Assembly: GCF_002571225.1 (NCBI RefSeq)
Contig: NZ_NVEC01000035.1
Span: 1 to 64,000, forward strand
Direction: 5' to 3'
Length of the DNA: 64,000 nucleotides
Origin: Bacillus sp. AFS059628
GTDB lineage: Bacteria; Bacillota; Bacilli; Bacillales; Bacillaceae_G
The position numbers were made by a program, and so were the translations under genes. Within the stretch, counting starts at the first letter, position 1, and each line of letters opens with the position of its first letter. Positions 26,187 to 45,784 of the stretch are shown piece after piece. The notes under the pieces are model-generated. The model saw only the letters and a program-made list of their open reading frames with translations. It was not told the DNA's origin and did not search any database.

Positions 26187-26361
26187 TCTCTTATCAAGAG
26201 AGGTGGAGGGACTGTGCCCTGTGAAGCCCGGCAACCGTCAACTTATGTTGAAATGGTGCCAATTCCTGCAAAGCAAATGCTTTGAGAGATGAGAGAGAGG
26301 GATAATGTTGTTATATACGCATATAAACCTTTCTGCTTCTCTAAAGCGGAAAGGTTTTTTT
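26187..26361 (+). promoter_or_regulatory. SAM-I (S-box) riboswitch with terminator
   Basis: The S-box consensus is clear: CTTATCAAGAGAGGTGGAGG, then GAAGCCCGGCAACC, GGTGCCAATTCC and AGATGAGAG. The intrinsic terminator is AACCTTTC/GAAAGGTTTTTTT at 26326-26361. S-boxes bind S-adenosylmethionine and end transcription early, so metN-metP-metQ should be expressed only when SAM is low. Confidence 0.95.
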
Positions 26362-44599: not shown

Positions 44600-44601
44600 A
44601 A

Positions 44602-44636
44602 AAAATCCTCTTACGATTGTAAGAGGATTTTTTGCA
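44602..44636. terminator. Bidirectional terminator yutD/S4 gene
   Basis: AAATCCTCTTAC and GTAAGAGGATTTTTT stem-loop. Confidence 0.9.
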
Positions 44637-45131
44637 TTATAAACAAATCGAGATATAATCGCCTTCAGAAAGTATTGTATTTGGCTTCATTTGTTGTCCG
44701 TTTAATTGAATATCACCATTTTTAATTTTATCCACAATGCGTGTACGGCTCCAGTCAGAAATATATGTGGATAAAGCTTTATCGATTCGGTGGGAACCGA
44801 AAACGAGGTCTAATACAATCGTAATTTCAGCTACGCCGCTTTCCTTATGTTGTGTAATGGAGATAGTAGTTGTTTCTGTTTGATCTTGTTGCGTCACATC
44901 GACTGTTTCCACATGATCAGTAAATGATTTATAAATACGAAGCTTTTGGTTCCATGTATGGTCTTTCGGACATTTATAAATGGCAAAGCGGTATATGTTT
45001 TTTCCGTTGGCATTATGCCTACGAATATTTGTGTCAGTAAATAGGGTAGTTCGTCTGCAATTTTTACAATATTTTTCGATTGTGTTTTGCTCGTTTTCAT
45101 ATAAACTCCAAGAAAGTTGTACTTTCTGCAT
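44637..45131 (-). CDS. Zinc-ribbon / S4-like RNA-binding protein
   Basis: A 164-residue protein with two parts. The N-terminal half has a treble-clef-like zinc site: YCKNCRRTTLF, then IYKCPKDHTWNQKL with a third Cys and a His. The C-terminal half (about 112-162) reads as an S4 domain: HRIDKALSTYISDWSRTRIV, GDIQLNGQQMKPNTILSEGDYISI, as in RNA-modifying enzymes and ribosomal S4, but no catalytic domain is attached. It probably binds structured RNA, such as rRNA or tRNA. ATAAGAGGTGAAGG precedes the ATG. The gene lies downstream of a long structured transcript from its own strand, which it might bind. Confidence 0.8.
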   Translation of the reverse strand: MQKVQLSWSLYENEQNTIEKYCKNCRRTTLFTDTNIRRHNANGKNIYRFAIYKCPKDHTWNQKLRIYKSFTDHVETVDVTQQDQTETTTISITQHKESGVAEITIVLDLVFGSHRIDKALSTYISDWSRTRIVDKIKNGDIQLNGQQMKPNTILSEGDYISICL

Positions 45132-45157
45132 TTTCCTTCACCTCTTATAGTAGTGGT

Positions 45158-45282
45158 AAAGGAACGTAATACAGCTATTTGGATGTCTTGTAGTATGAAG
45201 ACATGGGAAAAAGACAAAAATAAAAGGAGGTTCCCTTAGGAACCTCCGTAAACATCATACTACAGATGCGTTACGTTCCTTT
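45158..45282. repeat. Nested long-range inverted repeats around a terminator
   Basis: AAAGGAACGTAA (45158-45169) is the exact reverse complement of 45271-45282. Inside it, TGTAGTATG (45189-45197) is the exact reverse complement of 45256-45264. CTATTTGGAT (45175-45184) is complementary to 45402-45411. These pairs enclose the terminator hairpin at 45226-45247 and compete with the rod-shaped fold of the upstream RNA. Confidence 0.85.
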
Positions 45283-45416
45283 GTAATGGGAATGGGCAGA
45301 CTACTCCCTTGAAAAAGCACGGTGCTTTTTTGAGAGTAATGCTATCCAATTGCTGGTCCATTACAAAGTAGTTGTTGGCATACGTAGATAACGTCCTTTC
45401 TATCCAAATAGATTTA
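45216..45416 (-). ncRNA. Structured leader or small RNA candidate
   Basis: On the minus strand a promoter at 45423-45450 starts an RNA of about 200 nt. Read by eye it folds as a rod: closing stem ACGTTATCTACG with TGTAG-T-ATGATGT, an internal bubble, an 11-bp stem (45358-45368 with 45279-45289), a second bubble, ACTCTC/GGGAGT, and an apical AAAAAGC/GCTTTTT hairpin (45312-45330). A terminator (GGAGGTTCC/GGAACCTCC, 45226-45247) then T-rich sequence ends it. No ORF fits. It lies 85 nt before the zinc-ribbon/S4 gene, so it is either an attenuating leader or a separate RNA with 6S-like shape. Confidence 0.6.
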
Positions 45417-45422
45417 TTCTTA

Positions 45423-45450
45423 ATTATAACATAAAAGATCGAAAATTCAA
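45423..45450 (-). promoter_or_regulatory. Promoter of the structured RNA
   Basis: On the minus strand TTGAAT (45450-45445), 16 nt, TATAAT (45428-45423). Confidence 0.75.
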
Positions 45451-45460
45451 AATACTTATA

Positions 45461-45494
45461 ATGAAAAAACACCAGCTAAAACAGCTGGTGCCTA
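45461..45494 (-). terminator. Terminator after DUF3055 gene
   Basis: Minus strand CACCAGCT-GTTTT-AGCTGGTG followed by six Ts, just upstream of the RNA promoter. Confidence 0.9.
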
Positions 45495-45501
45495 AGATAA
45501 A

Positions 45502-45768
45502 TTATATAAGTTCAAATAAAAATGAGCGTAGTTCTTCTGCAATTTCTTCAGTCATAGAAAATGCGTGCTCTAAGTAGCCTGGTTCGTTTAAATCGTCAGT
45601 GCCGATGATTGCAAATTTATTGCGCTGCATATCAAGGACAATTGTTTTACCGTAATGACGATCAGAGTATAAAAGCGCTAAATCATGACGCTCATTTTCT
45701 CCCATAAAGCTAACGAAACGCGTTTTTGTAGCGACAGTATCGTCGTACAGAAAGAAACGATCTTCCAT
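45502..45768 (-). CDS. DUF3055 family protein
   Basis: An 88-residue acidic soluble protein matching the DUF3055 (SAV0927-like) family: DRFFLYDDTVATKTRFVSFM, ENERHDLALLYSDRHYGKTI, VLDMQRNKFAIIGTDDLNEPGYLEHAF. Function unknown. The start is the ATG at 45768, 8 nt after AAAGGAG; another ATG at 45774 abuts that site. It is 16 nt downstream of glpX in the same direction, so they form an operon that ends at the terminator before the structured RNA. Confidence 0.85.
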   Translation of the reverse strand: MEDRFFLYDDTVATKTRFVSFMGENERHDLALLYSDRHYGKTIVLDMQRNKFAIIGTDDLNEPGYLEHAFSMTEEIAEELRSFLFELI

Positions 45769-45784
45769 ACACATGGCTCCTTTA

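Follow-up and report, generated by a model that had tools for sequence, protein, structure and literature searches.

A gene for a protein with a zinc ribbon and an S4-like domain in Bacillus sp. AFS059628 is preceded by a leader that folds into an extended structure, which raises the questions of what kind of RNA this is and how it might act on the gene behind it. The leader lies on the minus strand of the stretch of 64,000 nucleotides analyzed here, referred to below as the window. The preliminary description of the locus recognized a long rod ending in a terminator, and folding bears this out: the rod (45205-45413) has a predicted free energy of -73.8 kcal/mol (z -6.9), and the 289-nt leader that includes the 3' segment (45125-45413) reaches -104 kcal/mol (z -9.1), values that none of 200 shuffles equalled in either case. 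The promoter proposed for this transcript, TTGAAT-16-TATAAT, is there to the letter, with TG preceding the second hexamer, and is a consensus match only: the window holds 4 such promoter-like matches against a mean of 3.8 in shuffles, which contain them no less often, so that there is no excess. Directly upstream is a SAV0927-like gene (PF11256, E 1e-35; 45502-45774, minus strand), followed by a terminator-like hairpin (45467-45493). A search of Rfam returned no family match at the leader locus, where six sub-threshold matches appeared under permissive settings, none above the gathering score, and 6S RNA was matched at neither the gathering nor the permissive thresholds. The sole Rfam match in the window at gathering scores is a SAM riboswitch (RF00162, 91 bits; 26188-26295, plus strand).

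All three long-range complementarities reported for this leader are present. The 12-bp pairing of segments 2 and 3 (B:B') falls within repeat I2 and the 10-bp A:A' pairing within repeat I4; the third, C:C', had been given as 9 bp (45256-45264 with 45189-45197) and is actually 10 bp long, forming repeat I13. Two elements had been missed, namely a short uORF and a hairpin that joins an anti-SD strand to the SD of the S4 gene (Table 1). The end of the uORF (CTTTGTAATGG) is at the same time one strand of helix P1, and the terminator sits between segments 2 and 3. Because the anti-SD strand overlaps B', the SD hairpin and the 12-bp B:B' helix are mutually exclusive.

Table 1. Features of the leader and of the adjoining S4 gene, in the order of transcription.
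Feature	Position	Strand	Basis
Promoter-like TTGAAT-16-TATAAT	45423..45450	-	Consensus match only
Segment A, partner of A' (45175-45184)	45402..45411	-	Complementarity and covariation, z about -7
SD-like GAAAGGA of the uORF	45394..45400	-	Sequence; similar motif ahead of most uORFs
P0 5' strand = segment 1, spacer before the uORF, partner of B	45382..45393	-	Covariation, z -4 to -5
uORF ATGCCAACAACTACTTTGTAA (MPTTTL*)	45361..45381	-	In frame, in 87/89 leaders with RNA
P1 5' strand = end of uORF	45358..45368	-	Complementarity, model-aligned pair counts
P2 hairpin, conserved core GGATAGC / AGTCTGCCC	45293..45348	-	Fold, model-aligned pair counts
P1 3' strand	45279..45289	-	Complementarity, model-aligned pair counts
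Segment 2 (B), hub: pairs with P0/P1, B' and possibly the terminator 5' arm	45271..45282	-	Complementarity, covariation, folding
Segment C, partner of C' (45189-45198)	45255..45264	-	Complementarity and covariation, z about -6
Intrinsic terminator, hairpin (45226-45247) and T tract	45216..45247	-	Terminator-like in 48/51 leaders
Segment C'	45189..45198	-	Complementarity and covariation
Segment A'	45175..45184	-	Complementarity and covariation
Segment 3 (B'), partner of B; overlaps the anti-SD strand	45158..45169	-	Covariation, z about -8
Anti-SD CCUUUACC	45155..45162	-	Covariation with the SD, z -4 to -6
Segment 4 = SD region GGUGAAGG of the S4 gene	45135..45142	-	Sequence and covariation
S4/zinc-ribbon protein gene, 164 aa	44637..45131	-	Homology
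Terminator-like hairpin 3' of the S4 gene	44600..44633	-	Sequence

The search with the S4 protein yielded 40 loci, in Bacillus relatives, Lysinibacillus, Fictibacillus, Brevibacillus, Paenibacillus, Hazenella and others, whose products are at most 54% identical to the window protein; both the leader RNA and the uORF were seen by eye upstream of all 40 S4 genes fetched. Of the 25 rows of one listing, the six weak and short ones (L068-L073) were set aside, and L074 and L075 are second pieces of loci already counted; seven leaders that duplicated others were taken out as well. Among 397 genomes of one order, 24 have matches to the S4 profile (the one in G177 is partial), and a model of the RNA places it next to 22 of the 23 full-length S4 genes, the one in G220 being without such an RNA. 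In a phylum-wide sample the protein was found in only 2 of 398 genomes, one of which is the sample centre. Plasmid and phage collections gave no match, and in viral contigs none of 8 pattern matches encoded a relative and none of ten exact matches of a 17-base pattern carried the RNA according to the model. The structure does stand upstream of orthologous genes.

The model, R1, was built from 20 sequences and, for scans of more than 40 genomes, run under stricter filters at which weak matches are lost. It found the RNA in 37 of the 397 genomes of the order, in 26 of 26 S4-locus genomes tried (of 40), in 9 of 179 genomes of the Paenibacillus order, in 17 of 39 of the Brevibacillus order and in 5 of 131 of the Lysinibacillus family. 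Counting each place once, and excluding an antisense match in G143 as well as a weak match in G387, which has an E of 0.005 and shows no uORF, we obtained 90 RNA places, of which 62 precede S4 genes, 16 DUF1062-like genes, 6 GNAT genes, 4 SDR genes and 1 a serine-hydrolase gene (L170, directly before a gene of the beta-lactamase fold); the single unassigned place, L123, has a beta-lactamase-fold gene 705 nt away. A Pfam search with eight of the non-S4 proteins identified one DUF1062 (E 2.7e-35), two GNAT, three SDR and two beta-lactamase-fold proteins, and the other non-S4 proteins were assigned by eye from likeness. No NCBIfam resistance model reached its cut-off among the matches listed (best 25 per protein), and the genes behind the RNA have no common metabolic theme.

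In the window S4 protein, Cys22, Cys25, Cys54 and His58 are invariant positions, and the C-terminal S4-like domain scores below the Pfam cut-off. The protein does not reach the gathering cut-off of DUF1062 (PF06353; 12.1 bits, cut-off 23); profile comparison nevertheless shows the S4 and DUF1062 families to be homologous (probability 97.8, E 1.1e-12), so that 78 of the 90 RNA places precede members of one superfamily. In comparison with PDB structures the S4 part resembles RluD (E 0.00018) and YlmH (E 0.0035), the latter of which is linked to ribosome-associated quality control (PMC11317155). A literature search found no function for the S4/zinc-ribbon family or for DUF1062.

The uORF consists of 5 or 6 codons in frame to a TAA and is present in 87 of the 90 leaders examined, or 87 of the 89 with the RNA, a count in which some leaders represent the same genome twice (L033, L089) and beside which stand 47 distinct uORF sequences, 24 of 21 nt and 23 of 18 nt. 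The exceptions are L099, in which no RNA is present, and the DUF1062-like leaders L133 and L134, which are one base short, so that the TAA is out of frame and reading continues to the next TAA. Since the search pattern itself demanded these lengths and a TAA, what is informative is that the frame is kept and that there are two length classes. The peptide is mostly M-P-x-(x)-x-L; codon 2 is Pro except in SDR leaders, which have Trp or Ala there. As the middle codons differ between leaders in each codon position, the peptide is not strictly kept. With two exceptions, the 47 distinct uORFs carry TTG or CTG directly before the stop. GAAAGG or GGAAGG stands ahead of most uORFs at a long distance from the start codon (12 nt in the window), and in the DUF1062-like leaders the uORF begins with TTG. 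A GTG start noticed by eye upstream of the DUF1062 uORFs is in frame in L126 and L132 and not in L171, and was dropped.

Pairing between the segments was assessed with duplex energies of each leader's own segments against those of swapped segments, the segments being picked by position in 50 leaders, at three non-redundancy thresholds and with 5000 permutations; L057, which has no S4 SD in the stretch cut, was left out here and in the SD and nascent folds (50 of 51 kept). Five pairings covary, namely B:B' (z -7.6 to -8.6), A:A' (-6.9 to -7.4), C:C' (-5.5 to -6.4), anti-SD:SD (-4.1 to -5.9) and P0:B (-4.1 to -5.0), each value being matched by at most 1 of the 5000 permutations, and four control pairings drawn from these segments showed no covariation signal (z -0.6 to 1.3). 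For B:A' the values are -1.9 to -2.7, with an A' stretch that overlaps B'. Only 8 of 24 rows for B:B' and 6 of 31 for A:A' (threshold 0.6) have their own partner as the single best one, a minority that reflects the sharing of partners among related leaders. An example of complete replacement is A:A', CTATTTGGAT/ATCCAAATAG in the window versus GGAGATATT/GATATCTCC in L029. Thus, the complementarities noted in the window exceed chance, as the pairings covary between species.

RNAalifold with default scoring recovered only P1 from MAFFT alignments (L022 and L040 omitted), and was replaced by the swapped-duplex tests together with a covariance model. P1 is almost invariant and hardly testable by swapped duplexes (n 2 to 6). 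In 66 model-aligned sequences, that is, in an alignment fitted to the structure, 84.8% of the cells of the P1 and P2 pairs are paired, against 40-53% when the columns are slid by 1-3, and 11 of the 24 pairs show changes on both sides, a number reached by 3 of 500 shuffles. In 25 leaders of non-S4 genes B:B' (z -3.4), P0:B (-3.6) and anti-SD:SD (-2.8) hold, with the B anchor misplaced in four of them (L124, L128, L133, L134) and B' not found within the stretch tested in another four (L125, L130, L131, L173); A:A' is unsupported in this set (z -1.6), one control pairing, A:B', comes out equally strong (-2.6), and two other control pairings gave 0.0 and 1.6. In 11 of 15 DUF1062-like leaders B:B' amounts to -21.8 to -25.5 kcal/mol. 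Taken at the level of sequence, the covariation supports a four-segment attenuator in which 1:2 (the uORF stem) together with 3:4 (anti-SD:SD) would compete with 2:3. Of the earlier view, a leader that acts in cis through pairings excluding each other is upheld, and both its terminator and its place before the S4 gene prove to be conserved. Covariation in homologues and presence before orthologous genes were two of the conditions named beforehand for refuting such a switch, and the idea came through both.

Folding of complete transcripts at equilibrium, by methods that cannot show pseudoknots, gave a mean SD openness of 0.13 in all three conditions, whether the uORF was blocked or not (n=50). 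In a set of 44 of the 90 leaders (43 had no recognised gene start and 3 no uORF, and the starts of at least two of the 44, L053 and L175, seem misplaced), blocking the uORF raised SD openness, slightly, in only 4. Given that the SD stays shut at equilibrium, a switch would need co-transcriptional folding or a pseudoknot. In nascent transcripts ending before the SD, a ribosome footprint placed over the start codon (-15 to +16) lifts the B:B' index from 0.14 to 1.03, with values above 0.5 in 45 of 50 leaders compared to 5 of 50 when free; the footprint at the stop codon gives 0.53 (21 of 50), and a block of the same size in P2, used as a control, 0.15 (5 of 50). In transcripts ending before the terminator 3' arm, pairing of B with the 5' arm rises from 7 of 50 leaders to 41 with the start-codon footprint, to 23 with the stop-codon footprint and stays at 7 with the P2 block. 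That covering segment 1 sets segment 2 free is in part built into the model, and the folds support, without proving, a co-transcriptional switch. The antiterminator pairing of B with the 5' arm does not itself covary (z -0.9). Once complete, the terminator forms nearly regardless of blocking (mean 0.86 free, 0.83 blocked), falling clearly in few leaders, such as L015, L028 and L037; the T run is anchored late in L007, L019, L051-L053 and L060, which lowers their terminator values.

The conserved uORF and the anti-SD:SD hairpin point to an attenuator of the ribosome-stalling kind, and we consider it probable that the leader is a uORF-dependent attenuator of the vmlR/ermC type. Its segments, the frame of the uORF and the mutually exclusive pairings are documented by sequence and covariation. 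By default, segment 1, which comprises the spacer and the end of the uORF, would pair with segment 2 in the nascent RNA, much of the transcription would stop at the intrinsic terminator, and in the read-through RNA segment 3 would pair with the SD (segment 4) and shut off translation. A ribosome arrested on the uORF, with the strongest effect at the start codon, would cover segment 1 and set segment 2 free, a step supported by the folding models. The freed segment could act as an antiterminator by pairing with the terminator 5' arm, and could then engage segment 3 before transcription reaches the SD, leaving the SD open. The signal would likely be a small molecule that targets the ribosome, or another cause of stalled initiation, and the downstream proteins might protect from the inducer or modify it. 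For the inducer itself, the translation of the uORF, the share of transcripts that terminate, the co-transcriptional order and the antitermination, this is the course of events that we infer. Several observations count against it: the closed SD of complete transcripts, the lack of covariation for the antiterminator pairing and the little-changed complete terminator, the minority of rows in which the own partner is the best, the long spacing ahead of the uORF start, the unsupported A:A' and the strong control in non-S4 leaders, the broken uORF frames of L133 and L134, and the S4 gene of G220 that has no such RNA.

Several other readings of the leader have to be weighed against this attenuator. 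One of them is a variant of it, with which it shares part of its probability: the uORF would sense a defined starvation or termination problem instead of an antibiotic, with the ribosome stalling at the Leu-stop end. The nearly constant last sense codon would fit this reading (the TAA that follows was demanded by the pattern), but the conservation of TTG-TAA can also be explained by this stretch being half of helix P1; a ribosome at the stop codon does free segment 2 in 21 of 50 nascent transcripts, although this is a weaker effect than that of the start-codon stall (45 of 50), and the uORF contains no repeated codon for any amino acid. We regard this variant as rather unlikely. Improbable in our view is a riboswitch in which the P2 core binds a small-molecule ligand, with the uORF as a bystander or a relay. 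P2 does have conserved letters beside the paired ones, and the RNA exceeds the size that a minimal attenuator needs; a pure aptamer, however, would not need a frame that is kept in all but two of the uORFs in leaders with the RNA while their middle codons vary, the downstream genes lack a shared metabolic theme, and L040 retains the uORF although it has lost P2.

S4 domains bind RNA, and the preliminary description suggested that the leader is perhaps autoregulated by the S4/zinc-ribbon protein; in that case the protein would attach to its own leader and repress its production. The tight gene link (all 40 S4 genes by eye, 22 of 23 by the model) and the fact that most RNA places precede the S4/DUF1062 superfamily are in keeping with this idea. 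Nevertheless, 11 of the 90 places precede GNAT, SDR or beta-lactamase-fold genes, and the occurrence of the RNA before several unrelated gene families argues against autoregulation, which is not supported as a general mode and which we consider quite improbable; the S4 protein may control these other genes in trans. The reading as a 6S-like or otherwise trans-acting small RNA, whose target would be the complementary sites downstream, draws on the rod and the conserved terminator, which could yield a stable short RNA. It appears highly improbable given that Rfam gave no 6S match and that the complementary sites lie in cis, in the leaders of different genes, and covary with their partners.

By analogy, the uORF-dependent attenuator would work much like the leaders of vmlR and ermC, to which it is close. 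In translational attenuators of the ermC type, pairing of segments 1:2 and 3:4 alternates with 2:3, and the SD is freed when a ribosome stalls on the leader ORF. The leader described here likewise has four segments, with 1:2 plus 3:4 against 2:3; it differs in a much shorter uORF, in the terminator between segments 2 and 3 and in the genes that follow. In the leader of B. subtilis vmlR (PMC9226507), a uORF lies in a bulge of the first stem, with a single-stranded SD before it, and is followed by a terminator and an SD-sequestering hairpin; an alternative pairing is proposed to disrupt both of the latter, and the uORF peptide differs among Bacilli (MIN, MDN, MDK, MRK). The architecture is thus alike in having a short uORF in or at the first stem, a terminator, an SD hairpin and a variable peptide. 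In contrast, the vmlR uORF encodes MIN and the gene an ABCF ATPase, whereas here the peptide is mostly of the pattern given above, the S4 leaders add A:A' and C:C', and one RNA precedes several gene families.

Two other systems resemble this leader in part. uORFC-6-1, found before hflX in Bacillales and suggested to be a sensor of stalled ribosomes, is also a uORF leader with covarying structure, but has an Arg-Leu-Arg peptide motif and a structure wholly past the uORF start, and occurs mainly with hflX (PMC8632094). In the topAI leader of E. coli, pairing along the uORF toiL likewise hides the ribosome-binding site of the gene, stalled ribosomes relieve this occlusion, and at least five classes of drugs act on it; the differences are the coupling to Rho-dependent termination, the host and the toxin-antitoxin gene pair (PMC12121999). 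The accessible parts of the literature contain no report of the leader described here, which might be an unnamed motif in supplementary lists (PMC2965389, PMC11109978, PMC8632094, PMC2864571). Within the reach of these searches, it is new for a single RNA family to combine several unrelated gene families with long-range clamps.

More tentatively, and with a probability that we put somewhat short of even, these leaders could form one family of RNA sensors, with a start-stalling uORF as the receptor, that governs a dispersed regulon against a common class of translation inhibitors in Bacillales, Brevibacillus, Paenibacillus and relatives. The S4/zinc-ribbon and DUF1062 proteins, as the main effectors, would then represent a new family of factors for the protection or rescue of ribosomes, and inactivation of the inhibitor would fall to the GNAT, SDR and serine-hydrolase proteins. 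If this is true, genes responding to ribosome stress in several groups of Bacilli are marked by a so far unlisted RNA family, which offers a handle on the S4/zinc-ribbon and DUF1062 proteins, as an agent that stalls ribosomes on the uORF would reveal the function of the gene.

Individual loci show further features. In Bacillus sp. CH30_1T (L040) a natural deletion has removed the P2 arm and spared the uORF, P1 and B, which is relevant to whether P2 is needed. No T tract follows the hairpin in the two leaders of RimJ-like GNAT genes (L136, L137); L170 has the SD of its gene immediately behind the rod. The GNAT gene in L125 (1750-2548) is split into frames of 135 and 125 aa and is intact in L131 (265 aa), and the DUF1062-like gene in L134 (2922-3359), where the uORF is also out of frame, appears to be broken near its start (only a 145-aa frame). 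In G203, about 200 nt lie between the terminator and A' (L096/L057), far more than in other leaders, and A:A' and B:B' are complementary by eye despite this spacer. Some genomes carry two copies of the RNA, before an S4 and a DUF1062-like gene in G815 (L167, L169) and before an S4 and a GNAT gene in G143 (L102, L137) and G203 (L110, L131).
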